From Siphonodentalium dalli (Eukaryota; Mollusca; Scaphopoda; Gadilida; Siphonodentaliidae): a stretch of DNA of 64,000 nt. Position 1 is the stretch's first letter, and every line of letters begins with the position of its first letter. Below the pieces are notes generated by a model that did not search any database, was not told the DNA's origin, and saw only the letters and a list, made by a program, of their open reading frames with translations. The stretch spans positions 127,321,030-127,385,029 of the forward strand of contig CP136067.1 of assembly GCA_032622095.1 (NCBI GenBank), given 5' to 3'. Of the stretch, positions 9,574 through 62,247 are shown one piece after another. A program made the position numbers and the translations under genes.

Positions 9574-9717
9574 TACCCTTATTTATATATATATAACAAA
9601 TATTCTTGAAAATGTTCTTGAATATGACTTCAGGGACACAAGGTACTCGCAGGGTAAATTTGAAATATTATAATTTTTAGAAAAGTCTGTAAAACAAATA
9701 AATGTGCATCAGCATCC

Positions 9718-9967
9718 AAGCCTTGAAATAGTGAGCCTGTCATTTGCAGAAATGAGGTTCCCAGAGGGTGAATTTAGTGATGCTATCCCGCACAGTGGGC
9801 TAGCATCACCAAATTCACCCTCTGGGAACCTCATTCTGCTAAGGCCTAAGCAGAATGAGGTCCTCAGAGGGTGAATTTAGTGATGCTATCCCGCAAGCGG
9901 GCTAGCATCACCAAATTCACCCTCTGGGAACCTCATTCTGCAAATGACAGGCTCATTATTTCAAGGC
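9718..9967. mobile_element. Nested double-hairpin element
   Basis: An outer inverted repeat (AAGCCTTGAAATA-TGAGCCTGTCATTTGCA) brackets two consecutive ~50-bp-stem hairpins made of the same arm: GAGGGTGAATTTAGTGATGC and its complement. The hairpin loops are only a few bases (near 9790 and 9895), and the centre of symmetry of the whole is at AAGGCCT, about 9840. The arms are nearly identical, suggesting recent formation or ongoing conversion. Confidence 0.85.
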
Positions 9968-10159
9968 ATGTCAGCATCAAGTACATGTAAATGGTTGTTC
10001 TCATATTTATTACCAGCTGAAACAGGCTCCCTTCACAAAGGGCTCCTGTGGCCCCCTTTGCGTACATTTTGATCTTAGACAGTCTTTATTCAGTGGCCCC
10101 TTTGTGTGCAAAGTGCACATTTTCATGGGATATGAAATCATAACATCAAAAGGAGACAT

Positions 10160-13705: not shown

Positions 13706-13726
13706 TAGTACACAATTAGTGATGTA

Positions 13727-14783
13727 TTTATGTAGTACCCACCCACCACCCCATGCCACCACCAATAGTATCTTATGCGCCCCTAGATAATTAGAGTATT
13801 TATGTAGTACCCACCCACCACCCCATCCCGCCACCTATAGTATCTTATGCGCCCCTAGATCATTAGAGTATTTATGTAGTACCCACCCACCACACCCCAT
13901 TAGAGTATACTATGGGTGACGGGATTGGGTGGTGGGTGGGTACTAGATCATTAGAGTATTTATGTAGTACCCACCCACCACCCCATTAGAGTATACTATG
14001 GGTGGCAGGATTGGGTGGTGGGTGGGTACTACACCACCCCATCCCGCCACCCATAGTATTTATGTAGTACCCACCCACCACCCAATCCCGCCACCCATAG
14101 TATCTTATGCGCCACCGGCGTCCCTAGATCATTAGAATATTTATGTAGTACCCACCCACCACCCCACCCACAGTATCTTATGCGCCGCAGGCGCCCCTAG
14201 ATCATTAGAGTATTTATGTAGTACCCACCGACCACCCCATCCTGCCACCCATAGTATCTTATGCGGCGCCGGCGTCCCTAGATCATTAGAATATTTATGT
14301 AGTACCCACCCACCATCCCATCCCGCCACCATAGTATCTTATGCGCCGCAGGCGCCCCTAGATCATTAGAGTATTTATGTAGTACCCACCGACCACCCCA
14401 TCCTGCCACCCATAGTATCTTATGCGCCGCAGGCGCCCCTAGATCATTAGAGTATTTATGTAGTACCCACCCACCACCCCATCCCGCCACCCATAGTATC
14501 TTATGCGCCGCAGGCGCCCCTAGATCATTAGAGTATTTATGTAGTACCCACCCACCACCCCATCCTGCCACCCATATTATCTTATGCGCCGCAGGCGCCC
14601 CTAGATCATTAGAGTATTTATGTAGTACCCACCCACCACCCCATCCCGCCACCCATAGTATCTTATGCGCTGCAGGCGCCCCTAGATCATTAGAGTATTT
14701 ATGTAGTACCCACCCACCACCCCATCCCGCTACCCATAGTATCTTATGCGCCGCAGGCGCCCCTAGATCATTAGAGTGTTTAT
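13727..14783. repeat. 81-bp minisatellite array
   Basis: The unit runs ATCATTAGAGTATTTATG, TAGTACCCACCCACCACCCC, ATCCCGCCACCCATAG, TATCTTATGCGCCGCAGG, CGCCCCTAG: 81 bases, so the minus strand stays open through successive copies (27 codons each). The distal copies are regular. The proximal ones (13727-14110) are scrambled, with short units and inverted pieces (GGGTGGTGGGTGGGTACTA at about 13930 and 14012 facing the normal CCCACCCACCACCCC). Confidence 0.9.
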
Positions 14784-14948
14784 GTAGTTATGTTGATATA
14801 TAACACAATTTGGGAAATTTTATACCATAATTGACAGTGGTCAGAATTATTTTGCTGCAATTAATCGATTCTGATAACAAGCAAATTTTTAAGAAATGTT
14901 GTTGTTGTTGTATCTTGATAACCACCTGATCAGATTGAGTACCTTTAA
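14783..14948 (-). mobile_element. KGT element fragment, terminal 165 bp
   Basis: Ends in GATTGAGTACCTTTAA and includes GTTGTTGTTGTTGTATCTTG, as in the copy ending at 51092. Its inner break, at ATGTTGATATATAAC, lies within a few bases of the point where the 14.8-kb foldback interrupts another copy of the same family. It abuts the 81-bp minisatellite. Confidence 0.6.
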
Positions 14949-35831: not shown

Positions 35832-36110
35832 TTAAAGGTACTCAATCCGATCAGACGCTCCTAAATTACTATTTCTTTGGCTTCAGGAGTAAACAAAATA
35901 TTTGATTCGAGTCGAGGAACGAGGAACCCACGCATCAAAGCTCAGAGTGATCAGATATCCGTTTTTGAAGTTTGCTATTTCTCGAGATGTGTAGTAATAT
36001 GTGGCCCAGAAACACGTGGTCAAATTGCGGATGAAGATGGATAACTCTAAAATCAAGTGGTAATACGGTTAAATTTCGTGATACTTTATAGATAATGTTG
36101 AACAAAATGT
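35832..36110 (-). mobile_element. KGT element, left half, split by the 14.8-kb insertion
   Basis: TTAAAGGTACTCAATCCGAT start, then TTTGATTCGAGTCGAGGAAC and GGATGAAGATGGATAACTCT as in uninterrupted copies read in reverse. It breaks off at ACAAAATGT (36102-36110); the rest of the element continues at 50911. Confidence 0.85.
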
Positions 36111-39100
36111 AGGTCCGTGAAGTTGGATCGAAGTTCGAAGTTCGAAATTCGGTGGAGATTCGCGTGAAGTTGGATCGAAGTTCGAAGTTCGAAATTCGGT
36201 GGAGATTCGACCCCCACTTTGTTTTGCATCAAGTGCGTTGTTGTGTTCCAATTCGTGCTCCCCTGCTCGAATTTTGGGTCAAAAGTGATTTTTTTCACTT
36301 TTTCTGAGATACTGTTGGACTTAGAAAATTTAGGCACGGCGCTGGACTTAGAAAATTTCGCCTTCAATATTAAGGTGCCGAAGGGAAGTGGCACTGTTTA
36401 TGGCTGGATCGGACTGAAACTTGGCAGTTTTGATACTTTCCATCAGAGAATCTAGCAAGTCAACGCTCAGCTTCGAGAAATTACTCGATCTATAGGTTTG
36501 AATTTCAATCTGAGCGTTCGAAATTCGGTGGAGATTCGTTCGAAATTCAGATTGAAATTCGACCCCCACTTTTTTGTGCCTTAAGTTCATTGTTGTGTTC
36601 CAATTCGTGCTCCCCTGCTCGAATTTTGGGTCCAAAGTGATTTTTTTCACTTTTTCTGAGATACTGTTGGACTTAGAAAATTTAGCCACGGCGCTGGACT
36701 TAGAAAAATTCGCCTTCAAAATCAAGGTGCCGAAGGGAAGTGGCACTGTTTATGGCTGGATCGTGCTGAAACTTGGCATTTTTTACACTTTCCATAAGAG
36801 AATCTAGCAAACTAACGCTCAGCTTCGAGAAATTACTCGATCTATAGGTTTGAATTTCAATCTGAGCGTTCGAAATTCGGTGGATATTCGTTCGAAGTTC
36901 GAAATTCAGATTGAAATTCAACCCCCACTTTTTTTTGCCCCAACTTCGTTGTTGTGGTCCAATTCGTGCTCCCTTGTTCGAATTTTGGGTCAAAAGTGAT
37001 TTTTTTCACTTTTTCTGAGATACTGTTGGACTTAGAAAATTTAGGCACGGCGCTGGACTTAGAAAATTTCGCCTTCAATATTAAGGTGCCGAAGGGAAGT
37101 GGCACTGTTTATGGCTGGATCGGACTGAAACTTGGCAGTTTTGATACTTTCCATCAGAGAATCTAGCAAGTTAACGCTCAGCTTCGATAAATTACTCGAT
37201 CTATAGGTTTGAATTTCAATCTGGGCGAATTTCGATCTGGATTGAAGTTCGAAATTCAGATTGAAATTCGACCCCCACTTTTTTTTGCCTCAAGTGCGTT
37301 GTTGTATTCCAATTCGTGCTCCCCTGCTCGAATTTTGGGTCAAAAGTTATTTTTTTTCACTTTTTCTGAGATACTGCTGGACTTGGAAAATTTAGCCACG
37401 GCGCTGGACTTAGAAAATTTCGCCTTCAATATTAAGGTGTTGAAGGGAAGTGGCATTGTTTATGGCTGGATTGAGCTGAAATTTGGTATGTTTGATACTT
37501 TCCATAAGAGAATCAAGCAAACTAACGCTCAGCTTCGAGAAATTACTCCATCTATAGGTTTGAATTTCAATCTGAATTTCAATCTGGGCGAATTTCGATC
37601 TGGATTGAAGTTCGAAATTCAGATTGAAATTCGACCCCCACTTTTTTTTGCCTCAAATGCATTGTTGTGTTCCAATTCGTGCTCCCCTGTTCGAATTTTG
37701 GGTCAAAAGTGATTTTTTTCACTTTTTCTGAGATACTGTTGGACTTAGAAAATTTAGGCACGGCGCTGGACTTAGAAAATTTCGCCTTCAATATTAAGGT
37801 GCCGAAGGGAAGTGGCACTGTTTATGGCTGGATCGGACTGAAACTTGGCAGTTTTGATACTTTCCATCAGAGAATCTAGCAAGTCAACGCTCAGCTTCGA
37901 GAAATTACTCGATCTATAGGTTTGAATTTCAATCTGAGCGTTCGAAATTCGGTGGAGATTCGTTCGAAATTCAGATTGAAATTCGACCCCCACTTTTTTG
38001 TGCCTTAAGTTCATTGTTGTGTTCCAATTCGTGCTCCCCTGCTCGAATTTTGGGTCCAAAGTGATTTTTTTTTCACTTTTTCTGAGATACTGCTGGACTT
38101 GGAAAATTTAGCCACGGCGCTGGACTTAGAAAAATTCGCCTTCAAAATCAAGGTGCCGAAGGGAAGTGGCACTGTTTATGGCTGGATCGTGCTGAAACTT
38201 GGCAGTTTTGATACTTTCCATCAGAGAATCTAGCAAGTTAACGCTCAGCTTCGAGAAATTACTCGATCTATAGGTTTGAATTTCAATCTGGGCGAATTTC
38301 GATCTGGATTGAAGTTCGAAATTCAGATTGAAATTCGACCCCCACTTTTTTTTGCCTCAAGTGCGTTGTTGTATTCCAATTCGTGCTCCCCTGCTCGAAT
38401 TTTGGGTCAAAAGTGATTTTTTTTCACTTTTTCTGAGATACTGCTGGACTTGGAAAATTTAGCCACGGCGCTGGACTTAGAAAATTTCGCCTTCAATATT
38501 AAGGTGTTGAAGGGAAGTGGCATTGTTTATGGCTGGATTGAGCTGAAATTTGGTATGTTTGATACTTTCCATAAGAGAATCAAGCAAACTAACGCTCAGC
38601 TTCGAGAAATTACTCCATCTATAGGTTTGAATTTCAATCTGAATTTCAATCTGGGCGAATTTCGATCTGGATTGAAGTTCGAAATTCAGATTGAAATTCG
38701 ACCCCCACTTTTTTTTGCCTCAAATGCATTGTTGTGTTCCAATTCGTGCTCCCCTGTTCGAATTTTGGGTCAAAAGTGATTTTTTTCACTTTTTCTGAGA
38801 TACTGCTGGACTTGGAAAATTTAGCCACGGCGCTGGACTTAGAAAATTTCGCCTTCAATATTAAGGTGCCGAAGGGAAGTGGCATTGTTTATGGCTGGAT
38901 TTAGCTGAAATTTGGTATGTTTGATACTTTCCATAAGAGAATCAAGCAAACTAACGCTCAGCTTCGAGAAATTACTCCATCTACAGGTTTGAATTTCAAT
39001 CTGAGCGTTCGAAATTCGGTGGAGATTCAGTGGAGATTCGTTCGAAGTTCGAAATTCAGATTCGACCCCCACTTTTTTTTGTCTCAAACATTTCGCCTTC

Positions 39101-41660
39101 AATATTATGATAGGGGTGGTGTCGGAGGGAAGTGGCACTGTTTATGGTTCGATCGAGCTGAAACTTGGCATTTTTGATACTTTCCGGTAGAGAATCCAGA
39201 AAACTAACGCTCAGCTTCGAGAAATCACTCGATTTATAGGTTTGAATTTCAATCTGAGCGTTCGAACCTTCAGTGGCGCTTCGTTCGAAGTTCGAAATTC
39301 GGTGGAGATTCACCCCCTAATTTTTGTTTTGCCTCAAGTTCATTGTTGTGTTCCAATTCGTGCTCCCCTGTTCGAATTTTGGGTCAAAAGTTATTTTTTT
39401 CACTTTTTCTGAGATACTGCTGGACTTGGAAAATTTAGCCACGGCGCTGGACTTAGAAAATTTCGCCTTCAATATTAAGGTGTTGAAGGGAAGTGGCATT
39501 GTTTATGGCTGGATTGAGCTGAAATTTGGTATGTTTGATACTTTCCATAAGAGAATCAAGCAAACTAACGCTCAGCTTCGAGAAATTACTCCATCTACAG
39601 GTTTGAATTTCAATCTGAGCGTTCGAAATTCGGTGGAGATTCAGTGGAGATTCGTTCGAAGTTCGAAATTCAGATTCGACCCCCACTTTTTTTTGTCTCA
39701 AACATTTCGCCTTCAATATTATGATAGGGGTGGTGTCGGAGGGAAGTGGCACTGTTTATGGTTCGATCGAGCTGAAACTTGGCATTTTTGATACTTTCCG
39801 GTAGAGAATCCAGAAAACTAACGCTCAGCTTCGAGAAATCACTCGATTTATAGGTTTGAATTTCAATCTGAGCGTTCGAACCTTCAGTGGCGCTTCGTTC
39901 GAAGTTCGAAATTCGGTGGAGATTCACCCCCTAATTTTTGTTTTGCCTCAAGTTCATTGTTGTGTTCCAATTCGTGCTCCCCTGCTCGAATTTTGGGTCA
40001 AAAGTTATTTTTTTCACTTTTTCTGAGATACTGCTGGACTTGGAAAATTTAGCCACGGCGCTGGACTTAGAAAATTTCGCCTTCAATATTAAGGTGTTGA
40101 AGGGAAGTGGCATTGTTTATGGCTGGATTGAGCTGAAATTTGGTATGTTTGATACTTTCCATAAGAGAATCAAGCAAACTAACGCTCAGCTTCGAGAAAT
40201 TACTCCATCTATAGGTTTGAATTTCAATCTGAATTTCAATCTGGGCGAATTTCGATCTGGATTGAAGTTCGAAATTCAGATTGAAATTCGACCCCCACTT
40301 TTTTTTGCCTCAAATGCATTGTTGTGTTCCAATTCGTGCTCCCCTGTTCGAATTTTGGGTCAAAAGTGATTTTTTTCACTTTTTCTGAGATACTGCTGGA
40401 CTTGGAAAATTTAGCCACGGCGCTGGACTTAGAAAATTTCGCCTTCAATATTAAGGTGCCGAAGGGAAGTGGCATTGTTTATGGCTGGATTTAGCTGAAA
40501 TTTGGTATGTTTGATACTTTCCATAAGAGAATCAAGCAAACTAACGCTCAGCTTCGAGAAATTACTCCATCTACAGGTTTGAATTTCAATCTGAGCGTTC
40601 GAAATTCGGTGGAGATTCAGTGGAGATTCGTTCGAAGTTCGAAATTCAGATTCGACCCCCACTTTTTTTTGTCTCAAACATTTCGCCTTCAATATTATGA
40701 TATGGGTGGTGTCGGAGGGAAGTGGCACTGTTTATGGTTCGATCGAGCTGAAACTTGGCATTTTTGATACTTTCCGGTAGAGAATCCAGAAAACTAACGC
40801 TCAGCTTCGAGAAATCACTCGATTTATAGGTTTGAATTTCAATCTGAGCGTTCGAACCTTCAGTGGCGCTTCGTTCGAAGTTCGAAATTCGGTGGAGATT
40901 CACCCCCTAATTTTTGTTTTGCCTCAAGTTCATTGTTGTGTTCCAATTCGTGCTCCCCTGCTCGAATTTTGGGTCAAAAGTTATTTTTTTCACTTTTTCT
41001 GAGATACTGCTGGACTTGGAAAATTTAGCCACGGCGCTGGACTTAGAAAATTTCGCCTTCAATATTAAGGTGCCGAAGGGAAGTGGCATTGTTTATGGCT
41101 GGATTTAGCTGAAATTTGGTATGTTTGATACTTTCCATAAGAGAATCAAGCAAACTAACGCTCAGCTTCGAGAAATTACTCCATCTACAGGTTTGAATTT
41201 CAATCTGAGCGTTCGAAATTCGGTGGAGATTCAGTGGAGATTCGTTCGAAGTTCGAAATTCAGATTCGACCCCCACTTTTTTTTGTCTCAAACATTTCGC
41301 CTTCAATATTATGATAGGGGTGGTGTCGGAGGGAAGTGGCACTGTTTATGGTTCGATCGAGCTGAAACTTGGCATTTTTGATACTTTCCGGTAGAGAATC
41401 CAGAAAACTAACGCTCAGCTTCGAGAAATCACTCGATTTATAGGTTTGAATTTCAATCTGAGCGTTCGAACCTTCAGTGGCGCTTCGTTCGAAGTTCGAA
41501 ATTCGGTGGAGATTCACCCCCTAATTTTTGTTTTGCCTCAAGTTCATTGTTGTGTTCCAATTCGTGCTCCCCTGTTCGAATTTTGGGTCAAAAGTGATTT
41601 TTTTTTCACTTTTTCTGAGATACTGCTGGACTTTTGCCACGGCGCTGGACTTGTGACTTG
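36111..41660 (+). repeat. Left outer arm: 13 tandem ~355-bp units with higher-order structure
   Basis: The marker AATTCGTGCTCCCC recurs near 36250, 36600, 36960, 37312, 37674, 38026, 38378, 38741, 39354, 39968, 40330, 40944 and 41557. Spacings alternate about 350 and 362, then become 613/614 with one 362. The 614 unit contains an extra shortened monomer (ATTATGATAGGGGTGGTGTC). Each unit contains AAGTTCGAAATTC-type palindromes and CTTTTTCTGAGATACTG. Unit lengths are not constant multiples of three, so the open frames here are not genes. The first ~90 bases are a doubled GAAGTTGGATCGAAGTTCGA block. Confidence 0.95.
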
Positions 41661-41764
41661 ATTTGTGATTTCTAGATGGACTAGTGGTGCACAAGAAGAA
41701 TCCACAAGGATAGCCCCGTGGCTGCTGTGGTTATCCATAAAAATTAGGGGTTGAATCTCCAGCA

Positions 41765-42300
41765 GAGTGAATTTCGTTACTTATTCCTTATTCAAAAAAA
41801 TTGGGGAAATGTTGCAAATGACCATGGCAACGTCTTAAGGCGAGACGAAATTTCCTGTGATAAAAAATCCGGGAAAAAAGTAAAAAATGTCTCGAAAGTC
41901 CGAAAATAAACGGAAATTGGCCGAAAGAAGTGCTGGGTCATTAATGGCCACATCGGCCAAAAATTTGGGCCGAAATGTTTTTGGGCCGAGTCCTAAAATG
42001 TTGGCCGAATTTCAGTTTTCGCTCTGCTCTGTCGGGAAAATTTCTGAAAATGTGGCAAACTGTCACATATTAAAAAATGGTCACCTGGGCCGAACTTTTT
42101 GGGCCGAAAAGTTTTTGGTCGAGTCCGAAAAAGTGGGTCAAATAGAAATTCCCGCTCTGCTCGGTCAGGAAAATTTGGGGAAATGTGACAAACTACCATG
42201 GCAACGTCTTTAGTAAGGCGAGACGAAATTTCGTGTGAAAAAAAGTCCGAAAATAAACGGAAATAGTCCGAAACAAGTGCGTGGTCATAAATGGCCACCT
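41765..42300 (+). repeat. Left inner arm (second repeat family)
   Basis: From GAATTTCGTTACTTATTCCT through ACCATGGCAACGTCTTAAGG, CGAGACGAAATTTC, GGGCCGAA... and GCTCTGCTCGGTC to AAATGGCCACCTCC. It is matched inverted by 48200-49425, which has about three units where this arm has a little over one. Confidence 0.85.
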
Positions 42301-42303
42301 CCA

Positions 42304-42325
42304 GGGGGGGGGGGGGGGGGGGGGG
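42304..42325. repeat. 22-base G run
   Basis: An uninterrupted run of 22 G at the inner edge of the left inner arm. Other G or C runs of 9-12 lie at about 43259, 43737 and 43851. Confidence 0.95.
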
Positions 42326-43928
42326 TCTGCAAAAAAAAAATCCGTATATAGGGCCGGAGTGGTTGGGTGATTGGTCCAGAGGCCGAAAAAATCGTGCTTG
42401 TAAATTTTTTCAAAAATGGATTTTTAAAAAACAATTTACAAGTACTGACCATGTAATGTTGTTTGTAAGCATGTTAGTACCATGCTTATTGATATAGGGC
42501 TATATAGGCAGCTATAGTGACTCTTTAGCCTCAGATTTAGCAACATTCTGGATTTTGCATAACATGAAATTGAAAAGGGTATCTCATAAATTTCTAATGT
42601 CTGAAATACTGTCTTGTTCTGGCATGTAATCAAATTCATTCCTTCTGGTTATTTCTGATCTTGAATGTTAATTTGCAACAATTATCCAAATAAAACTGAA
42701 TTGGTTATGATGAATGACCGTTACTGAAGGTGACGCTATTCTCATTGAATTTCCGAACTTCTGCTTTACTGTTCAACAAGACTAAACTAAAATACTAATA
42801 TATATACTGTTATCACTTACAAATAGATGAACTGAAATAATGTGATGCAATCAGATGCATTGAGAAATGACATTCTTCAATGTCTTCAAAGTTCAAACTA
42901 AAAGTAAAATCAAGAATAAACTCTGACTGAGACTAGACTGCAAACTCTAGTGCACAAATGTGCATACAAATATTTAAAATCCATAGCAACTGAAGCTCCA
43001 CTAAAACTCAACAGTTCTTGAACATTTGATAATATTTAGGTCCACACATTCTATTTTCCTTTACTGATATGGTTAGTCAAAAGCAGTCATGTCACAACCC
43101 GTGATATTATGCATATTCGTTCCCCATTTCTGGTCCGTCACCATGCCATAGGGCATCAAAATATGACAACCGTCTCTTGAGTTATAATGCAAAATGTTTG
43201 TACGGACGGACGCACGGACGGCTCGAGACGTCAACTATATACCCGCCGACTAATATCGGGGGGGGGGGGTATAATAACCATATATCTATGTGTATACCTA
43301 GCAAAAACAATTCCCCTCCCCATCCCACCCGGTGGATAAGACTAAAGAGTTCTTTGGTCATGTACAAATAATTGTGGAACCCCTGACCTGTTTACCACTA
43401 TTTACACTGGCCAGTGTTCTCAGTCAGACACAACAAACTCGATATATTAAGGCTATAACGGGGTCTAGGGTGATTTGAGACATATATTGTACCTGCACAA
43501 TGCTTTATTATTGTTGTTAGATACTGAAAATACCTGGAAACACCTGGAAATACAGTTTATTTTTCGTTTTTCTGATCTGTGTTTACCAATTAAGCATGTT
43601 ATTGCTCGAGTCTTAATGGTACACAACAAGAGTTTGCACCAAAAAAGGATAAAGGAATGGGTTTGGAAGGCAGTTAGCACAGTTATTGAAGAACGGCTAA
43701 AAAAAACTCTGAAATTTTGATAAAAACATGAGAAAGGGGGGGGGGGTCCCCAAAATTTTGGAGGAAATATTTTTGTTTTGCACAAATGGGGTGGTGGGTC
43801 ACTCGGGGTCGGAAAAAAGTTTTTGGGTCCTATATGTGCATTTTTCCCCCAGACCCCCCCCCCTGCCACCTCGGCCAAAAATGTTCGGGCCAAGTCCGAA
43901 AAAGTGGGCCTATGGGCTGAATATGGGA
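42326..43928. other. Core of the foldback, left non-coding part
   Basis: Ordinary AT-rich DNA followed by a CGGACGGACGCACGGACGG block and a GGGGGGGGGTATAATAA ending at about 43196-43278, which looks like the end of another dispersed repeat nested in the element. The long minus-strand frame at 43465-44148 has low-complexity content and is not taken as a gene. Confidence 0.4.
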
Positions 43929-44140
43929 TATGGACCATTTTCGAGAACACTGAGGATTTCGGCCAATTTGACGGCATGGGTGGGTGGGTGGCCTGTCTCA
44001 AATACCCCCTAGAGACATCTCTACCCCCACCATCACCCCAGATGGTACCACCCTGAGGAGGTGAAAATGTGGTATGGACCAACGGTAAGGATTTCGGCCA
44101 ATTTGACAGCATGAATGGATGACCCGCGCCAAATACCCGC
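43929..44140. repeat. Diverged direct repeat, ~145-bp period
   Basis: TATGGACCATTTTCGAG...GGATTTCGGCCAATTTGACG and TATGGACCAACGGTAAGGAT...TTTCGGCCAATTTGACAGC carry the same phrase twice. It contains GGCCAA and CCGAAAAAGTGGGCC words also present in the inner-arm repeat. Confidence 0.6.
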
Positions 44141-44363
44141 CGAAACATTTAGAGTCTTGCCACCTCTTAGTCGCTAAGTTTGGTATCATAATTTCGGAAC
44201 GGAACTGTAAACGGTGTTTTACTGACTTCTCATTTGGTATATAGTATATATACATAAGTTCGTGTCTATTCTGTTGTATAAGATCTGACCATTTAAAACT
44301 GTCACTACGGTGACATCGGTTACTTATTCCCAGTTTCTTATTCCTTATTCTGAAACATATTTT

Positions 44364-44645
44364 GACCAAATAAACGGTGCGGTAGGGTGACCCACCCCAA
44401 AAATAAAATATAAAAACCGAACACCGCACCGCTCTAGCCCGTGCGGTTGCCACAGGAGGTGGCCAAATTGGCAACCATAGCCCTTTTGGTATTTATGAAC
44501 CGATTCTGACCAAATAAACGGTGCGGTAATGTGGTCCACCCCAAACTATACTATAAAAACCGAAAACCGCACCCTCTAGCCCGTGCGGTTGCCACAAGAG
44601 GTGGCCAAAATGGCAACCATAGCCGTTTTGATATTTATGGACACC
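44364..44645. repeat. Two 144-bp direct repeats with CGGTGCGGT/ACCGCACCG inverted words
   Basis: GACCAAATAAACGGTGCGGT starts copies at 44364 and 44508. Each copy then has TATAAAAACCGAA, ACCGCACC, CTCTAGCCCGTGCGGTTGCC and GGCAACCATAGCC. The inverted CGGTGCGGT and ACCGCACCG words can pair across a T/A-rich loop containing TATAAAAA. Position upstream of the gene cluster suggests a control or origin region; that role is inference. Confidence 0.75.
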
Positions 44646-44890
44646 AGATACGAACAGACGAATATGATGGCTATACAGTATTATACTACAGCGATGAAAT
44701 AAAGATGAACATTTACTTAAACCAACACTTTATTAATTAAAATTCTCCGAATTCAACCAAACCACCGTTCAAGTCACGACTTTCAAACTAATTATATGGT
44801 ATGCTGCATCGTCACCCTCTATCGGACGATTCATCACCTGTGATGCAGTGGTTTCGGTTCACAACTATCATCTTATACTGTACAAAGGAG

Positions 44891-45036
44891 CAGCAGGGGG
44901 TGAATGCACCAACTGATTCGGGCCATAAACGGGCTCCACTGAGCCTCCCAGCCCCTGTCCACAGCAGGGGGTGAATGCACCAGCTCATTCAACCCAAACA
45001 ACTCTCTGCCCCTGTTCCCAGCAGGGGTGAATGCTC
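44891..45036. promoter_or_regulatory. Three iteron-like CAGCAGGGG-TGAATG repeats
   Basis: CAGCAGGGGGTGAATGCACC at 44891-44910 and 44962-44981, and CAGCAGGGGTGAATGCTCC at 45019. The second and third are preceded by CCCCTG, so each can form a CCCCTG...CAGGGG hairpin. They lie 110-250 bases before the first gene of the cluster. Confidence 0.65.
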
Positions 45037-45099
45037 CCCGGTATCAAGCATATAGACCTCCACGTACTCAAATAATTGGGACAATGCATTCTCCTTTTA

Positions 45100-45125
45100 G
45101 ATATACCCGTTGTTATGGGTATACC
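45100..45125. promoter_or_regulatory. Short hairpin just upstream of the gene cluster
   Basis: GATATACCC and GGGTATACC pair across an 8-base loop; the hairpin ends 18 bases before the ATG at 45144. A role in expression is possible but unproven. Confidence 0.4.
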
Positions 45126-45143
45126 TGAACTTCCTGAAGTAAT

Positions 45144-45380
45144 ATGAAGGGTCAACATTCATGCCGGTGGCTTACCTTGAACTCTACAGAGCTCTGTTCC
45201 CTACGCTGTCTGGGTGAGTACTGTAAAGTTCATCTGGCCCGATTGCGAAAAGGATTATGCACAAAGCCGTGCCGTGTTTGCGGTAAGGGTGCAACGAACC
45301 AAATATCACTCTACTTGAGGTGTGGTTACAGAAAAGAAAAGGGATTTGCTCGGTTGGCGGCCATTTACGTTTTCAATTAG
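45144..45380 (+). CDS. 78-residue Cys-rich zinc-binding-like protein
   Basis: Complete frame from ATG at 45144 to TAG. Cysteines fall in two groups: C7, C18, C22, C27 with H30, then C43-x2-C46 and C60 in a zinc-ribbon-like spacing, with basic residues between. Such small Cys-rich proteins often bind nucleic acid or act as adaptors. It is the first gene of a same-strand cluster, and the next ORF starts 13 bases after its stop. GC content is visibly higher than the flanks. I do not know a named family. Confidence 0.6.
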   Translation: MKGQHSCRWLTLNSTELCSLRCLGEYCKVHLARLRKGLCTKPCRVCGKGATNQISLYLRCGYRKEKGFARLAAIYVFN

Positions 45381-45393
45381 AGATGTGGTTACA

Positions 45394-45741
45394 ATGAATA
45401 TACCTATCCAGGACATGTCTATTATACGCAAGCTTCGAGCCCAAGCCAAAGATCTCGGCTTGAGGGAGTATTCCTCTCTTCGAAAGCCTGATCTAATTAA
45501 GGCGATTGCCGACGTCCGTGCTGCAGAGTTTGTTTCACGTCTGCGGCGGGCCATGAAGACAGGCCGGTTCCCGGCCATTCGTGAGGATGTGGACAACACA
45601 CACAGGCGCGGTCAGAGACACCGCAAGCTTAAACTGATCGACGCCGAGGTCACGGCGTGCGAAACCATCAAGGAGAGACTGCAAAGGAACCCAATCAGGA
45701 GAAAAGAACCGTTGAGGCACATTGGCGAAAGGAAGTGGTGA
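45394..45741 (+). CDS. 115-residue Rho_N/SAP-like DNA-binding protein
   Basis: The ATG at 45394 is preferred; the frame is open further upstream only in the shadow of the previous gene. Residues about 10-36 (I-I-R-K-L-R-A-Q-A-K-D-L-G-L ... Y-S-S-L-R-K-P-D-L-I-K-A-I) fit the helix-extended-helix of Rho termination factor N-terminal or SAP-like domains, which bind DNA or RNA. The rest is highly basic (R-R-G-Q-R-H-R-K). The stop TGA (45739-45741) overlaps the ATG of the next frame as TGATG, an arrangement typical of viruses or prokaryotes and unusual for animal genes. Confidence 0.6.
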   Translation: MNIPIQDMSIIRKLRAQAKDLGLREYSSLRKPDLIKAIADVRAAEFVSRLRRAMKTGRFPAIREDVDNTHRRGQRHRKLKLIDAEVTACETIKERLQRNPIRRKEPLRHIGERKW

Positions 45742-46164
45742 TGGAATGTCGTGCGGAGCATTATGCGAAAAGGCCCTGGGGTCCTCAGAGAATCGGACTT
45801 CAGATAAATGAGGGAGAGGGGACAATTTGACCTGGATGTCCAGGTCCCGCACTCGGTGGGGATCCCGGCAGACGAACCTTGGGTTGACATGATGAACGAT
45901 GCCAAAAACGAGTTTGAAGTCGACGGCGCAGCCGCAGTCCTCTCCACATGGAGGGTAGAGAGTGTCGACTCAACAGATTCGACGGTCGTATGGCAGATAA
46001 GAGAGCAGCTTCCCGAACGAGAGTACACCCTCAAAGTTAAGTTCTTGAGGCAGCATGATGACGGCAACTGGGTGGTTGCAGACAAGTTCGACCCGGTCAG
46101 AGCCGAGAGGAAGAAGGGACAAGGCGTCGTTGAGATCATTCATGCCATAAGCCCGGTGTGCTGA
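45741..46164 (+). pseudogene. Unknown third gene of the cluster, frameshifted
   Basis: Starts at the overlapping ATG (45741) and runs 29 codons before stopping near 45830. The downstream frame (open from 45808 to the TGA at 46162-46164) continues in coding-like fashion for 118 codons, so one frameshift near 45825-45830 has split the gene. The second part is acidic with alternating hydrophobics (W-R-V-E-S-V-D ... W-Q-I-R-E). No domain recognised. Confidence 0.5.
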
Positions 46165-46169
46165 CGCCA

Positions 46170-48150
46170 GACGGGTATTGACCGCCCATACTATGAGAAT
46201 GCCTACCCCGTCACTGCGGTCGTCTATGGCATCTATCCCCGATCCTGCAAACCTAGCACCAATGAAGGACGGCGACATCAACTGTGTTGCCCAGTGGAGG
46301 AACACGTTGAAGGTGTGCTGAGAGGGCAGGGACTCACGCCCACGAGGAGAAAGAAAATTCAGAAGTGAGAGGAGCGAGTTCATCAAACAGGCCGCGGTCG
46401 GGGATGTCGCCGTCCTCGAGAAGATACTGAAGCGTGCGATCATACTCCGAGATATAGCCGATGAGGACATCTACACCAACTGGAAATACCAGCTTAGGGG
46501 CAACGGGATCAGAGGTAAAGTAGAGCTCATCTGCCACAACAGCCACGCCTGGTCCAAAGACCCCCAATTCCCATGCTCCAGGCAGGCTCACTTCTATGAA
46601 GGCGATATCTGGGAGGCCATTCGAAACGCAACCCAGGACGAGCCGATTGCAGTCTGTCTGCTAGGGGGTGCAAGACAGAGCTCAGTATGGACCAGATTGT
46701 GTTCCAAGACGGCCGCACACACAGGACACTGGAGACTGACCAAAACCTCCAGGAAGCCTTGCTGAATTGGGCGATGAGTCCCTCGCAGACCGAGCCGTCG
46801 GTGTGAACCACACAGCCAGTATCATGACAAAAGAGCACAACGGCTGGAAACCGACCCGGCTAATCTCGGACATGACACCCAGAAAGCATGTGTCGAGCAT
46901 GGTCATGGAGGCATCTGGAACGCGACGGGCTGCGATATAAGAGACGTCGCCAGCATCGACATGAAATCCTGCTAACCGGCCAGCTTCCAATGCCATGGCG
47001 AGGCCAAGCCACATTTTGACAGATTCGGGCACCCCACCCACCGCATGACCCGGTCCCAATCAACGCCCTCTCCCCAAGATATCGGCACCGGTTTCGCCGA
47101 GGTATAGGAATGGGAGTTCGCCCCTAACTGCCATCCCGTCATCCCCGCCTGGTTCGGAAAGCATTTCGCATATCAGGGCTGTGCCCCCACACACCTGCTC
47201 GCCTTTCTGGTTGAGTCAGATCTCCTGAAGAGCCTGAAGGTCCACGAGGCCATCATCACCTTTGAGCAACGAACCGAGGTCTGGCTCCCTGAAGATCGTG
47301 ATGAAGGCTGCATCATCATAGGCAAGTTCACCCAGGACAGCAATGGCGACGGCAAAAGACTGACACGGAGGCTTGTGGTCGACCAGGGAAAGCTTAACTT
47401 TTTGGTAAGGGACACCCCCCAAAGTGGCACTCTGGTTGGCGCCCCCAACAGTGTCCCCTGGGCCACATTCTCACATACGACGATGGCTCGCAGCACCAGT
47501 ACACCCACTTGAGGGCATCAATGCTGGCCACACCAACCTCTTGCTATGCTGGCAAGATGTGAACCCGATGAAGCTTTCCGGGTGGCCACTGATAGCATTT
47601 ACGCCCAGAAGACCGCGTTGCAGAAGCTTGACGGTGTCAAGGCGTACGTCGCCCCCAACTATGTGACTGTGGTGAGAAATTGTGTGTTAACTGCTTGACT
47701 GTGGATCCATTCCTCTTACCGGTGGGCTCGGCTCAGTGGCGTGATAAGGGGGAGCAGTTGTACATGCCGCAGGAACACGCGCGTACCTCTCCAAGCCAGA
47801 ATACTGTAGCCATGCCACACCGATGGTCGAATCAACGGCGCCCAGCTACAATGACTCACTGACCCGGCACCAGCTGAGCTACTTTAATGGTGGCGGGGGC
47901 AGTGGCAAGACTACAGGAGCGATCGAGCTCTTCGGGGTAAGAGGCCCCCTCGTGTTTACCCCGACCCATCGCATCGCCAATGAAATGCGGATCCGAGGGG
48001 TCAAAGCCCAGACATACCACATCTTCTTCCGATGGAGCGATCAAAATGACTGGACGCCCGATCGCATGGGGTAGAAGTTCATCCCACGTGTCATCATCTG
48101 GGACTAGGTCTGCACTGTGCCCGGCCTATCTTGGAGATGTTCTTGAACTG
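46170..48150 (+). pseudogene. Family-B DNA polymerase plus SF1 helicase fusion, decayed and truncated
   Basis: Open stretches in shifting frames form one long broken gene. Polymerase motif A is recognisable at 46958-46978 (D-M-K-S-C, stop, P, where the family has D-x2-S-x-Y-P). Motif C is V-A-T-D-S-I-Y-A at 47582-47605. Helicase motif I (GGGGSGKT) is intact at 47889-47912, followed by F-T-P-T-H-R and a T-Y-H-I-F-F-R-W segment resembling motifs Ia/Ib. Motif II is broken: TAG at 48105-48107 follows its Asp. Other in-frame stops include 46973, about 47104 and 48072. The gene ends abruptly where the right inner arm begins. Family-B polymerases and Pif1/Dda-like helicases replicate viral or plasmid DNA; a combined gene suggests a self-replicating element. 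GC-rich compared with the host. Confidence 0.7.
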
Positions 48151-48199
48151 GATTGACCAATATGGAGTTCATTTAATTTGCTGAGGGGATCAAGGACAG

Positions 48200-49425
48200 C
48201 CACAGGAAATTTCGTCTCGCCTTACTTAACACGTTACCATGGTCATTTGCCACATTTCCCCAAATTGTCCTGACCGAGCAGAGCGGGAATTTCTATTTGA
48301 CCCACTTTCTCGGACTCGACCCAAAAAATTTCGGCCCAAAAAGTTCAGCCCAGGTGGCCATTTTTTAATATGGGACAGTTTGTCACATTTTCCGAAATTG
48401 ACCCGACCGAGCAGAGCGAAAACTGAAATTCGACCCACTTTTTTTTAACTCAACCCAAATTTTTTTCGCCTTATTTAAGACGTTGCCATTGTCATTTGCC
48501 ACATTTTCCTAACCGAGCAGAGCGGGAATTTCTATTTGACCCACTTTTTCGGACTGGACCCAAAATATTTTCGGCTCAAAAAGTTCGGCCCAGGTGACCA
48601 TTTTTTAATATGGGACAGTTTGCCACATTTTCCGAAATTGACCCGACCGAGCAGAGCGAAAACTGAAATTCGACCCACTTTTTTGGACTCGACCCAAAAT
48701 GTTGTTGACCCAAAATTTTTGGCCGAGGTGGTCATTTATGACCCCGCACTTGTTTCGGACTATTTTCGTTTATTTTCGGACTTTGCCTATTTTGGAGGCA
48801 TTTTTGAACTTTTTTCCCGGATTTTTTTCACACGAAATTTCGTCTCGCCTTACTTAAGACGTTGCCATGGTCATTTGCCACATTTTCCCAAATTTTGCCT
48901 ATTTTCGAGGCATATTTGAACTTTTTTCCCGGTTTTTTTTAACACGAAATTTCGTCTCGCCTTACTTAAGACGTTGCCATGGTCATTTGCCACATTTTCC
49001 TAACCGAGCAGAGCGGGAATTTCTATTTGACCCACTTTTTCAGACTCGACCCAAAATATTTTCGGCTCAAAAAGTTCGGCCCAAGTGGCCATTTTTTAAT
49101 ACGGGACAGTTTGCCACTTTTTCAGAAATTGACCCGACCGAGCAGAGCGAAAACTGAAATTCGACCCACTTTTTCGGACTCGACCCAAAACAAATTTGGC
49201 CCAACATTTTTGGCCGAGGTGACCATTTATGACTCAGCACTTGTTTCGGACTATTTCCGTTTGTTTTCGGACTTTGCCTATTTTGGAGGCATTTTTGAAC
49301 TTTTTTCCCGGATTTTTTTTCAAACGAAATTTCGTCTCGCCTTACTTAAGACGTTGCCATGGTCATTTGCCACATTTTCCCAAATTTTGTGATAAGGAAT
49401 AAGGAATAAGTAACGGAATTCACGC
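48200..49425 (-). repeat. Right inner arm, about three ~440-bp units
   Basis: Units begin CGAAATTTCGTCTCGCCTTA, contain GACGTTGCCATGGTCATTTG, ACCGAGCAGAGCGGGAATTT and ACCCACTTTTTCGGACTCGA, and end near TTTTGAACTTTTTTCCCGG. Inverse of 41765-42300; its outer edge GATAAGGAATAAGGAATAAG also matches the left arm's TTACTTATTCCTTATTC. Confidence 0.85.
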
Positions 49426-49429
49426 TGCT

Positions 49430-50910
49430 TGAATCTCCACCGAATTTCGAACGCTCAGATTGAAATTCAAACCTATAGATCGAGTAATTTCTCGAAGCTG
49501 AGCGTTAGTTTGCTTGATTCTCTTATGGAAAGTATCAAACATACCAAATTTCAGCTCAATCCAGCCATAAACAATGCCACTTCCCTTCGGCACCTTAATA
49601 TTGAAGGCGAAATTTTCTAAGTCCAGCGCCGTGGCTAAATTTTCCAAGTCCAGCAGTATCTCAAAAAAAGTGAAAAAAAATCACTTTTGACCCAAAATTC
49701 GAACAGGGGAGCACGAATTGGAACACAACAATGCATTTGAGGCAAAAAAAAGTGGGGGTCGAATTTCAATCTGAATTTCGAACTTCAATCCAGATCGAAA
49801 TTCGCCCAGATTGAAATTCAGATTGAAATTCAAACCTATAGATGGAGTAATTTCTCGAAGCTGAGCGTTAGTTTGCTTGATTCTCTTATGGAAAGTATCA
49901 AACATACCAAATTTCAGCTCAATCCAGCCATAAACAATGCCACTTCCCTTCAACACCTTAATATTGAAGGCGAAATTTTCTAAGTCCAGCGCCGTGGCTA
50001 AATTTTCCAAGTCCAGCAGTATCTCAGAAAAAGTGAAAAAAATAACTTTTGACCCAAAATTCGAGCAGGGGAGCACGAATTGGAACACAACAATGCATTT
50101 GAGGCAAACAAAAGTGGGGGTCGAATTTCAATCTGAATTTCGAACTTCAATCCAGATCGAAATTCGCCCAGATTGAAATTCAAACCTATAGATTGAGTAA
50201 TTTCTCGAAGCTGAGCGTTAACTTGCTAGATTCTCTGATGGAAAGTATCAAAACTGCCAAGTTTCAGCACGATCCAGCCATAAACAGTGCCACTTCCCTT
50301 CGGCACCTTGATTTTGAAGGCGAATTTTTCTAAGTCCAGCGCCGTGGCTAAATTTTCTAAGTCCAACAGTATCTCAGAAAAAGTGAAAAAAATCACTTTG
50401 GACCCAAAATTCGAGCAGGGGAGCACGAATTGGAACACAACAATGAACTTAAGGCACAAAAAAGTGGGGGTCGAATTTCAATCTGAATTTCGAACGAATC
50501 TCCACCGAATTTCGAACGCTCAGATTGAAATTCAAACCTATAGATCGAGTAATTTCTCGAAGCTGAGCGTTGACTTGCTAGATTCTCTGATGGAAAGTAT
50601 CAAAACTGCCAAGTTTCAGTCCGATCCAGCCATAAACAGTGCCACTTCCCTTCGGCACCTTAATATTGAACAGTCCAGCGCCGTGCCTAAATTTTCTAAG
50701 TCCAGCAATATCTCAGAAAAAGTGAAAAAAAATCACTTTTGACCCAAAATTCGAGCAGGGGAGCACGAATTGGAACACAACAACGCACTTGATGCAAAAA
50801 AAAGTGGGGGTCGAATCTCCACCGAATTTCGAACTTCGAACTTCGATCCAACTTCACGCGAATCTCCACCGAATTTCGAACTTCGAACTTCGATCCAACT
50901 TCACGGACCT
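49430..50910 (-). repeat. Right outer arm: four ~355-bp units
   Basis: Inverse of the left array; the marker GGGGAGCACGAATT occurs near 49712, 50066, 50423 and 50763. One unit is shortened by a deletion near 50670. It ends with the same doubled terminal block and TTCACGGACCT. Thirteen units left versus four right gives strongly unequal arms. Confidence 0.95.
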
Positions 50911-51092
50911 ACAAAATGTTGATAAATAACAAGTTTTGGGAAATTTGATACCATATAGTTGACTGTGGTTAGCATTATTTTGTTGCAATAAATCGATTCT
51001 GATAACTAAAGCGTATTTTGAAGAAATGTTGTTGTTGTTGTTGTTGTATCTTGATGGTATGGAGACCGTCTGATCGGATTGAGTACCTTTAA
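50911..51092 (-). mobile_element. KGT element, right half
   Basis: Resumes with ACAAAATGTTGATAAATAAC, passes GTTGTTGTTGTTGTTGTTGT and ends GGATTGAGTACCTTTAA. Together with 35832-36110 it forms one KGT copy, in the reverse orientation relative to 51203 and 56312. Confidence 0.85.
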
Positions 51093-57826: not shown

Positions 57827-60800
57827 TTGAATCCAAGATGGCCGCCAACATTGAATATCTGACCATGTAAAATTCATTTCGCAATTACTCAGGAAGTTTA
57901 TGAGTTATTACGTCGTGCGATATGTCATTCTATTGATAATTGAGTAATACTCCTTATTTATAGGTATGCATAAATTTCATATACAAAAAATGGCCGCCAA
58001 AATGGCCACCGGAAGTGAAAAAATGACACCTTTTCACTAATATCTTCTATATCGGTTTCTGCTGTTTGAAACTGTTCGAGTATTGTCACTTTATTTTGTA
58101 CATTTTATATTAACTGATCATTGGGGCAATGAAATAAGAAATTCTTTGGATCCTAGCCCCTTCCGATCTGTGAAAAAATTGATTTTTCAGAATGCGGTAT
58201 AAAATTTTCACAAAAAAATCACAATTGGGATTCTAGTCACATTTCAAAAAGTAATGAGCAGAACTGTGTTATGTAAGTGAGGCATACCATTACCCGTAAA
58301 TATTCCAAGTCATTGGAACCAAAATTGTTAATTAATTACTTAATTAGTTACTTAATTGCTCAAAATGGCCACCAAAATGGCCTCCAAAATATGGAAAATT
58401 GTAAATATTGCCCCAGCGTTCCCTGCAATCGCTTACAAGTTGTGGTTGATGAATAAAGTTGGCTATTCTGCCTTTTATCCGTTGAAAACCGACATGTCTG
58501 ATTCACCTTGGTTAATTTTTAGTATTGTAACCACTGACATTACAAGAAATATTGGATTTTACTCTCACAAACTTGACATAAATATCGGCAAAAATTAACT
58601 TTTTAGGTACGGACCATTTAAAAAAAAAGTAAACTTTAACTAACTTTGGTATGAAAGGTGCTTATTTTTTTTATCTATTTTAAATGTGTCACACTAAGGT
58701 GTCGAAAGACCAAATTACTCAAGATGGCTTCCAAAATGGCAACTAACTTGGGTAAAAAGTTCATTTTTCACATATATCCGGAATATTAATCTCTGCTGTA
58801 TGGTCCTGTGTGAGGTCAAGGGAGGTCAAGCATCATGAGTGGGGTGTCTATTGTGAGATGTATAGGCATACAGGTAGTGGCTGTGTGGTCATGTGTGAGA
58901 TGAATATGTTTACAGGGAGTGACTGTATGGTTGTACGGTAATGTGTGGATGTACGGGTATGTACGATGTGGCTGTATGGACAATGATATGGTGTGTGGAT
59001 ATAAGGAGGGTAGCTACATGGTCATCTCTGTGTTGTTTATGTATCTATGGAGTGACTGTATGGTCATGGTGGGATGTACATGTGTATATTGGGTGGCTGT
59101 ATTGTCACAGGTGTTTGTACATGTATACATGTGTTGTCTGTGTGATCATGGGTGGGGTATATGGATACATAGGGAGTAGTTGGATGGTTATGTGTAATGT
59201 GTATAGGTGTACATGGAATGAATGACAGTACGGTCATGTATTATCATGCATGGGGTATAGCTGGGTGGTCGTCGGCGAGCGTGTGTGTATATAAGTCGTG
59301 GATGTACATTGTCATTGGTGGATGTACAGGTAGACATGGAGTAGCTATATGAACATGGATGGTGTGTGTGGTTGTACAGTGAGTGGCTGAATAGTCATGT
59401 GTGGGGAGTATGATTGGCCGTGTGTGCGAAGTATTGGTACATCTGGAAGGACCGTATGGTCATTGGTGATGTGTATGTGTACACCTGGAGTAACTCTGTG
59501 GTCATGTGTGGGGTGTATATGTATATATAGAGTGGCCATATATGGCTATATGGCCACGAGTATGTCGAATAGATATGCAGGGAGTGACTGTGTGGCCATT
59601 GGTGAGATGCATATGTGTACAAGGAGTAACTGTGTGATTAGCAATGTGGTGAATAGGTATACATGGAGTGACTATATGGTGATGGTCAGCTGTAGGAGTA
59701 TACCACGTGAGCATGTATGGTGACTAAAGCTGTATGGTCATGTGTTGTGTACGGGTATACCCAAGTGTGGCTGTTTAGTCATGGGTGAGGGCTATGTGTA
59801 TAGCTAGTGTGGCTATATGACCATTGGTGATTTACATATGTATACCTGGAGTGACTCTATAGTCACGAGTGGGGTCTATATGTTTATCTTGAGAATGGCT
59901 ATTTCGGAATGGGCGTGGCGAGTAGATTTACAGGGAGTGAACGTATGGCCAATGGCGTGGTGAATACCAGTAGTACCAGTAGGGACTGTATGATCATGGA
60001 TGTGGCGAATAGGTATACATGGATTTACCTGGTCTACCTGTATGTTGACTAATGACTGTGTGGGTTGTATGGGTATATACAAGTGTGGTATTGACATGGC
60101 TCAGGGGTATGTGTATAAAACGAGTGATTATATGACCATTGGTGAGGTGCATATGTATAACTGGAGTGACTGTATGGTCATGGTGGAGTACATATGCATA
60201 TATTGTGTGGCTATTTGGCCATGGGTGTGGGAAAATAGGTACACATGGAGTGAATATGGCCAATGGTGAGGTCAATAGGTATACACTTATTGACTATGAT
60301 CATGAATGTGGTGAATATGTATGCATACAGTGACTATATGGTAAATGGGTGACTCTATAGTCACGGGTGGGTGTATGGGTATACACATGTGTGGTATTGT
60401 CATGGGTGAGGGTATGTGTATAAAGCCAGTGATTATATGACCATTGGTAAGGTTCATGTGTATACCTGGATGAGGGGTATTTGAATAAAGCGAGTGATTA
60501 TATGACCATCGGTGAGGTGCATATGTATACCTGGTGTGACTATATATGGTCATGGTGGAGTGTATATGCATATATTGAGTGGCTATTTTGGCCATGGGTG
60601 TGGGGAATAGGTACACATGAAGTGACTGTATGGTCAATGGTGATGTCAATAGGTATACAATGATTGACTGTATGATCATGAATGTGGTGAATATGTGTAC
60701 ATATTGTGACGATATGGTCATGGGTCAAGTGTAGGTCCTATACCTGGTGTACCTGTATTGTTGCTGATGGGTGTATGGTCATGTGTGATGTGCATGGGTT

Positions 60801-62247
60801 TTCACAATTATTGGTGAACGGTGATGGGTGAGGTGTATGTGTAAACAGCGAGCGACTATATTGTCAGCTGTGTGATGTTTATTTATATATGAAGTGACAT
60901 GTTACTGGTGGGTTGTACATGTGTATCTTGGGTGGGTATCGCTTTCCTCAATAACTCAATGATATGTTAATCGATAGAGAGGTCACGTCCGAGAGTCCTC
61001 CGTCTGGTGGCGTTTATACACAATGGAGGAAATGCTAAACGACTTTCCTAACAACAGTTGATAATTTTTTATGCTAATAGGCTAGAGTAGCCACATATTA
61101 TGGTCCCTCTCAGTTCCGTTTCAAAGTTCTGCAAATTTCTTTTCAAAAACATGACCAGAATCCCAAAAAAGACGTTTTCGCACAATTCCACACTTCGTAC
61201 TTTAACATTAAATGATAATGACTCATAAATAATGCACTAATATTTAGTTGTCAGTGATTAACTAACATGTCTAATAACCAAGTGAGTCACACTGTGCTAC
61301 CTTTTCAGAACGTCAGAGCATTATGTTCCGGATATATGTGAAAATAAACTTTTTACCCAATTTATTTGCCATTTTGGAAGCCATTTTGAGTAATTTGGTC
61401 ATTAAACACCTTAGTGTGACACATTTAAGATAGATCAAAAGAATAAACACCTTTCGAAACTAAGATAGTTACATTTTGCTTGAAAAAAACGGTTCAAACC
61501 TGAGAAGAAATATTTTGCCGATATTTATGTCAAGTTTGTGAGAGTAAAATACAATATTCCCCAGTAATGTCTTTGTTACAATAGTGACAATTAACCAAAT
61601 TGCATCAAGTATATTAGTTTTCAATGTATAGAAGGCAGAATATCCAACTGTATTCATCAACCACAACTTGTAAGCGATTGCAGGGCACACTGGGGCAATA
61701 TCTACCATTTTATATATTTTGGTGGCCATTTTGAACCAAAGTAACAACTTTTGTTCCTATGAGTTGGAATATCGATGGGTAATGGTATGTCTCACTTACA
61801 TTCCACAGTTCTGCTCATTCCTTGTTGAAATATGTATAGAAACCCAATTGTGATTTTTTTTGTGTGAAAATTTTATACCGCGTTCTGTAAAATCAAACTT
61901 TTGAGGGATCGGAAGGGGCTATGAACCCAATAATTGCTTTTTTCATTACCCCAATGATAACATAATATAAATATACAAAAATAAGGTCACAATCCTCAAC
62001 CAGTTCCAAACAGTAGAAACTGATATAGAAGATATCAGTGAAAAAAAAGTCATATTTTCCACTTCCGGTGGCTATTTTGGCGGCCATTTTGAATAAATGA
62101 TATTTATTCATACATATAAATAAGGAGTGCTCAATTATCAATAGAACGACATATCGTACGACTTAATACCTCATAAACTCCCTGAGTGATTGCGAATTAA
62201 AATTTGCCAGGTCAGATAATCAATTTTGGCGGCCATCTTGGATTCAA
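57827..62247. mobile_element. 4.4-kb foldback element with minisatellite loop
   Basis: Arms of 966 and 922 bases (57827-58792 and 61326-62247) start TTGAATCCAAGATGGCCGCC and are inverted copies differing at perhaps 15-20% of sites. The 2.5-kb loop is mostly a degenerate minisatellite. No target duplication was seen and no transposase is present. Confidence 0.85.
58830..60940. repeat. Degenerate ~45-50-bp minisatellite (loop of the 4.4-kb foldback)
   Basis: Dozens of variants of the phrase GTATACATGGAGTGACTGTATGGTCATGGGTG with GTGTATATGTGTAC-like linkers. All short frames here are by-products of the repeat. Confidence 0.85.

Follow-up and report, generated by a model that had tools for sequence, protein, structure and literature searches.

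A 14.8-kb stretch of the scaphopod Siphonodentalium dalli is a nest of elements with one foldback inside another

Among the described foldback (FB) elements, Tetris of Drosophila virilis has end units of ∼220 bp that share a stretch with its terminal domain and target duplications of 8–10 bp, and the available part of its description reports that no transposase was found (PMC4079207), while Tm1 of Meloidogyne is presented, in the sections available, as a foldback with a 9-bp duplication and units of ∼14 bp (PMC3169594). The combination of 9-bp duplications and FB-like arms is said, in the accessible portions of two reports, to fit the Mutator superfamily (PMC3169594, PMC5225508). The second of these also describes, in the portion at hand, Muta1 of Aedes aegypti (3198 bp), which has a transposase of its own, 8- or 9-bp duplications and tandem repeats in its ends, and the non-autonomous copies of which keep the ends only, ∼20% of them aligning internally with host genes (PMC5225508). 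Finally, Tlr1-like helicases, or pPolB-S1H proteins, are known to occur in polinton-like viruses and transpovirons (PMC11071308, PMC12721341). Here we analyse a window of 64,000 nucleotides from Siphonodentalium dalli (assembly GCA_032622095.1, contig CP136067.1, positions 127,321,030 to 127,385,029; positions below count from its first letter), which holds a 14.8-kb stretch with foldback arms and polymerase-helicase coding sequence that the original prediction took for one giant transposed unit. This stretch is instead a nest of elements, one foldback within another, and it records three nested insertions, each with its own target duplication and each matched by uninterrupted sites within the window (Table 1).

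The outermost insertion is that of a foldback into a short element, here called KGT, which is bounded by TTAA at 35832–35835 and 51089–51092, has 22-bp inverted ends (AGGTACTCAATCCGATCAGACG; letters compared by eye) and measures ∼0.44 kb without the insertion (hand count). The 9-mer ACAAAATGT flanks the outer foldback on both sides. When the KGT flanks were fused at the insertion point, with the 9-mer kept once, and used as a BLAST query, two uninterrupted KGT copies of the window were recovered, one at 56.3 kb (340/468 identical, 65 gap columns, expectation value (E) 3e-76) and one at 15.2 kb (309/443 identical, 61 gap columns, E 5e-48), both of which carry the 9-mer once and align without a gap at the junction itself. 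The predicted entry of a foldback-type element into a TTAA-flanked KGT, with a 9-bp duplication and related empty sites, is thus borne out. An 81-bp minisatellite array (13724–14788) adjoins KGT-like sequence (14790–14948) that matches 50916–51092, and this array has perhaps grown inside a KGT copy.

The ends of the outer foldback are perfect inverted repeats of the 19-mer AGGTCCGTGAAGTTGGATC (36111–36129, plus strand, and 50892–50910, minus strand), which, even when 3 mismatches are allowed, is found at no third site in the window. Its arms are identical over the first 110 bp and 93.8% alike across 1478 columns, and they are unequal in length, the left one measuring 5.5 kb and the right one 1.5 kb; the innermost 22 bp of the right arm (41739–41760) are separated from the rest by the inner element and lie on its far side. 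In the left arm, the two 47-bp terminal repeats match at 100%, and the unit of ∼352 bp gives 17 matches, of which 12 span 327 bp or more and 5 are partial. A 25-mer of the terminal repeat recurs, with up to 3 mismatches, at 16 sites where none is expected, 12 of them in the left arm and the other 4 in the right. A block of 1.9 kb occurs twice in the left arm, the two copies being offset by 1580 bp and 96.4% identical, which suggests unequal exchange of units. With tandem repeats making up its long inverted ends, and with a duplication that has a matching uninterrupted site, the outer element has the make-up of FB elements. Subtraction of the inner element and of one 9-bp duplication leaves it at 7122 bp.

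The inner foldback has ends reading AGCAG(A/C)GTGAATT(T/C)CGTTAC, which agree at 18/20 positions and first differ at position 6, so that a scan for exact 10-base ends misses the pair. When the window was scanned for exact 9-bp repeats that flank inverted ends agreeing at 14/20 positions or more, 30 pairs were returned; the outer one (20/20) ranks first and the inner one second, and 22 of the 25 pairs listed are register hits within the outer arms, whereas ten Markov-resampled controls yielded 0, 0, 0, 0, 1, 0, 0, 0, 0 and 0 pairs (one in all). Across the inner insertion the flanks read AAAAATTAGGGGTTGAATCTCC and ACCGAATTTCGAAC, and the uninterrupted AAAAATTAGGGGGTGAATCTCCACCGAATTTCGAAC is present on the minus strand of four outer left-arm units (39325, 39939, 40915 and 41529). 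Rightward from the inner 9-mer TGAATCTCC, 206/209 bases match in each of at least three left-arm units. The inner duplication lies within a repeat unit of the outer arms, and the inner foldback therefore sits in the outer right arm. It, too, has long inverted ends of tandem repeats and a 9-bp duplication with an uninterrupted site, the left-hand match of that site being short (13 bases past the 9-mer). For these reasons we reject a single 14.8-kb element as the simplest reading: the outer duplication speaks for the outer ends only, and 7669 bp of the interior make up another foldback, which has a 9-bp duplication of its own. The claim that a unit of nearly 15 kb has transposed is not supported.

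A third insertion of 1.56 kb interrupts the inner left arm, and without it the inner foldback comes to ∼6.1 kb. Its duplication is either 8 bp (GCCACCTC), in which case the right end lacks its first C, or 7 bp (CCACCTC, with an end at 43865), in which case both ends read CAGGGG; the ends agree at 14/20 positions. Aligned across the junction, its fused flanks match the inner right arm twice (75/81 in both cases) and the left arm once (63/70). The CAGGG-type ends make this nested segment a candidate hAT element; no transposase was seen in 42302–43864.

Table 1. Features of the nest (positions in the window; a point stands for no strand)
Feature	Positions	Strand	Basis or content
KGT element, recipient of the outer foldback	35832..51092	.	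letters and joined-flank alignment
Left target duplication, outer foldback, ACAAAATGT	36102..36110	.	
Outer foldback element	36111..50910	.	ends, arms, joined flanks
Outer left arm	36111..41652	+	two 47-bp terminal repeats, then array of ∼352-bp units
Outer element loop, ∼86 bp	41653..41738	.	inferred
Left target duplication, inner foldback, TGAATCTCC	41752..41760	.	
Inner foldback element, 7669 bp	41761..49429	.	ends, duplication, arms
Inner left arm, first part (resumes at ∼43865 beyond the nested insertion)	41761..42301	+	
hAT-like element inside the inner left arm	42302..43864	.	duplication and uninterrupted homologous sites
Open frame with Rho_N match, directly upstream of the polymerase-helicase gene	45319..45741	+	
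Decayed gene for a polymerase-helicase, pPolB-S1H (Tlr1-like) type	45814..48200	+	tblastn matches of relatives
Inner right arm	48201..49429	-	internal repeats of ∼494, 240 and 112 bp
Right target duplication, inner foldback, TGAATCTCC	49430..49438	.	
Outer right arm	49439..50910	-	4 units, inverted order
Right target duplication, outer foldback, ACAAAATGT	50911..50919	.	

We consider it quite probable that the locus consists of two non-autonomous foldbacks, one within the other, on which a Mutator-type transposase probably acted in trans, and that the inner one carries a captured piece of a replicase. This enzyme, encoded elsewhere and probably a member of the Mutator superfamily, would bind the terminal motif that recurs along the arms, cut-and-paste would move each foldback separately, and unequal exchange of units would lengthen the arms; the replicase piece would then be a captured fragment, as in Mutator-like elements of the Pack type (Pack-MULEs), with no role in transposition. 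Both foldbacks have 9-bp duplications, within the 8–10 bp (commonly 9) of Mutator elements, and the 11/20 positions at which outer and inner ends agree (counted by eye) hint that one transposase family may have served both.

Several observations weigh against this interpretation. Pfam searches of six X-masked frames of 41601–49402 revealed no transposase domain. Because none was seen, the assignment to the Mutator superfamily rests on the length of the duplications and the form of the arms, and since no transposase of the MULE-type DDE kind was found in this interval (non-autonomous copies lack one by nature), we do not file the elements as MULEs. The left side of the inner empty site is weaker than the right: leftward of the insertion the match to outer units comprises the 9-mer and 13 bases with one difference, and the BLAST alignment of the fused inner flanks begins at the 9-mer. 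Furthermore, no second copy of the outer or inner ends was found elsewhere in the window or in viral contigs, and the sole match of the outer end in a collection of genome contigs is at chance level by our own estimate.

The polymerase-helicase cargo of the original prediction exists as a gene, in a broken and 3′-truncated state, and is part of the inner element. It is colinear with residues 18 to ∼851 of a relative of 1167 residues (P0027), its pieces lie in three frames with in-frame stops, and it ends at the inner right arm (tblastn matches extend to 48223, ∼20 bases into the arm; we took 48200 as the limit), so that it lacks ∼316 residues (∼27%), which comprise the remaining helicase and the HNH region. 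This truncation fits the capture of gene pieces of the kind seen in non-autonomous derivatives of Muta1. The polymerase part is recognized only by its motifs. In the six-frame scan, Rho_N was the only family at E 0.01 or better; among ten single open frames (nine from the inner element, one from the left end of the window) Rho_N exceeded the cut-off in one, and AAA_19 fell below it in the helicase piece. The Rho_N frame may be the front of the gene; Rho_N is absent from the Pfam families listed for the 26 aligned relatives, and as a protein query the piece gave 26 candidates, none at E 0.001. A tandem pair of 142 bp (44359–44639) lies upstream of the replicase remnant. The same scan of 41601–49402 (E 0.01) detected no domain of a capsid, packaging ATPase or integrase, and a whole polinton-like virus was rejected on this result. 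We also rejected the replicase as a separate element nested in the inner core, a scan of which for duplications of 2–10 bp gave one weak hit (43979–47042; 5-bp duplication, 15/20 ends) that stops within the gene.

With the helicase piece as query, 18 short relatives were obtained from 21 candidates, eight of them named as from metagenome-assembled genomes (MAGs) of Candidatus Thiodiazotropha, along with 37 longer ones (P0019–P0055) from 136 candidates, which measure 772–1367 residues (the lower bound having been set by the search) and of which the named ones are two from Elysia crispata and one from Thiodiazotropha. We infer that the matches in Thiodiazotropha MAGs are host DNA. The long relatives lie on contigs of up to 3 Mb, one cluster comprises 46 sequences, and P0019–P0055 may represent a multi-copy family of animal elements. 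In 26 aligned relatives we recognize the motif A pattern in 24, xTDS in all 26 and the HNH pattern in 24; a superfamily 1 (SF1) helicase follows the polymerase region, as it does in Tlr1-like pPolB-S1H proteins. Motifs of a putative OTU-like domain precede the putative palm (Cys pattern in 20/26, His pattern in 24/26), and Pfam reports no OTU family for the 26. Neither the Pfam nor the PDB sequence matches of the relatives include a polymerase. Predicted models are weak (mean pLDDT 61 and, for P0040, 51, which is too low for that model to be used). Foldseek matches listed from the PDB are mostly helicases; on a second inspection, 50 listed PDB matches span model residues 700–1062 only, so that a polymerase is not thereby excluded; against viral models, the best match listed is H6WBE3 (1127 columns, template-modelling score 0.19–0.22). 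Viral contigs held 13 stretches matched with the helicase piece and 24 matched with alignment A2 that fit a pattern, none of which proved to be a relative. Phages gave no match to the helicase piece, and 11 records to P0019, confined to the helicase region (10% of the query, 31–32% identity).

Could the protein have been the replicase of the inner element itself? The inner foldback would then be a decayed member of a family in which the polymerase-helicase-HNH protein is native, that is, a capsid-less, self-copying element of polinton-like descent whose ends are the long repeated arms. The gene indeed lies within the inner ends, no separate, convincing inverted-repeat unit was found around it, and it has many long relatives, the HNH pattern being reached by nearly all that were aligned. 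The ends of Tlr elements of Tetrahymena contain tandem repeats. Many contigs of polinton-like viruses are described, in the available part of the source, as having long inverted ends (PMC4642659). The gene, however, stops at the inner right arm with more than a quarter of it missing, none of the three virus-type domains sought was detected in 41601–49402, and 9 bp is the duplication length of Mutator and foldback elements; we regard this reading as unlikely. In its boldest form the inner element would be what is left of a so far undescribed lineage of animal foldbacks, self-copying, capsid-less and derived from polinton-like elements, in which one polyprotein joined an OTU-like protease, a protein-primed polymerase, an SF1 helicase and an HNH nuclease, the repeated inverted arms served as replication ends and a 9-bp duplication arose on entry. 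We hold this form to be improbable.

As to the order of events, a 14.8-kb composite might have jumped whole into KGT after the inner foldback had inserted into an outer copy at another locus. The tie to KGT involves the outer ends only, and the sequence leaves the order of the two insertions free. Yet two separate insertions of smaller elements account for everything, and a review states that no Pack-MULE of one survey was longer than the full-length element of 7 kb and that the efficacy of transposition falls above 6 kb of cargo (PMC6431247); we judge a composite jump very unlikely. That tandem and inverted repeats were misjoined into arms or a nest during assembly is hardly credible: the assembly of long inverted tandem arrays is difficult, but the arms differ in length and sequence, and misjoining would scarcely produce two exact 9-bp duplications plus a third of 8 or 7 bp, all of them with matching uninterrupted sites.

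The favoured reading of two separately moved foldbacks removes the case for a record of 15-kb foldback cargo. It also illustrates that stacking, here in three levels, each with its scar, can mimic a giant transposon. The arrangement is unusual, yet it is assembled from known kinds of parts. The cargo is the more interesting lead, with relatives of up to 1367 residues that combine polymerase-like motifs, an SF1 helicase and an HNH pattern in data from a sea slug and from symbiont MAGs; within the searches made of the open-access literature, no title or beginning of an abstract dealt with pPolB-S1H in foldbacks or molluscs.

Elsewhere in the window, a palindromic unit of ∼254 bp (9717–9970; 8-bp flanking repeat TCAGCATC, 18/20 inverted ends) is probably a small non-autonomous element, and an open frame at 1–876 with a zf-RVT match slightly under the Pfam cut-off is likely the end of a retrotransposon without long terminal repeats (non-LTR). 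Sequences at 57827–58795 and 61314–62247 form an inverted pair of ∼970 bp (81%) with diverged repeats between them; we rejected it as a further foldback, having found no 7–12 bp duplication near its ends.

When compared with described systems, the cargo resembles pPolB-S1H proteins (i) in the order of regions in its relatives, namely an N-terminal part, OTU-like Cys/His motifs, PolB-like motifs, SF1 helicase and HNH, and (ii) in that the first Asp of motif C is replaced (ATDS). It differs in being a frame-broken, truncated remnant within a foldback, with putative palm and OTU folds, in that no capsid, packaging ATPase or integrase domain was found nearby (41601–49402), and in that its few named relatives come from a sea slug and symbiont MAGs. 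With Muta1, as far as its available description extends, the locus shares 8- or 9-bp duplications, tandem-repeat ends and non-autonomous copies that carry gene pieces; in contrast, no transposase is seen here, and the piece carried here is from a replicase of mobile-element or virus type. The closest likeness in form is to Tetris and Tm1, judged from the accessible parts of their descriptions, which likewise have long inverted ends of tandem repeats, duplications of 8–10 bp (Tetris) or 9 bp (Tm1) and transposase-less copies, and in Tetris, as here, outer arm units share sequence with the extreme end. The units, however, measure ∼350 bp here versus ∼220 bp in Tetris and ∼14 bp in Tm1, and, unlike either, the Siphonodentalium dalli locus contains a foldback within a foldback, the inner one with the remnant of a replicase.

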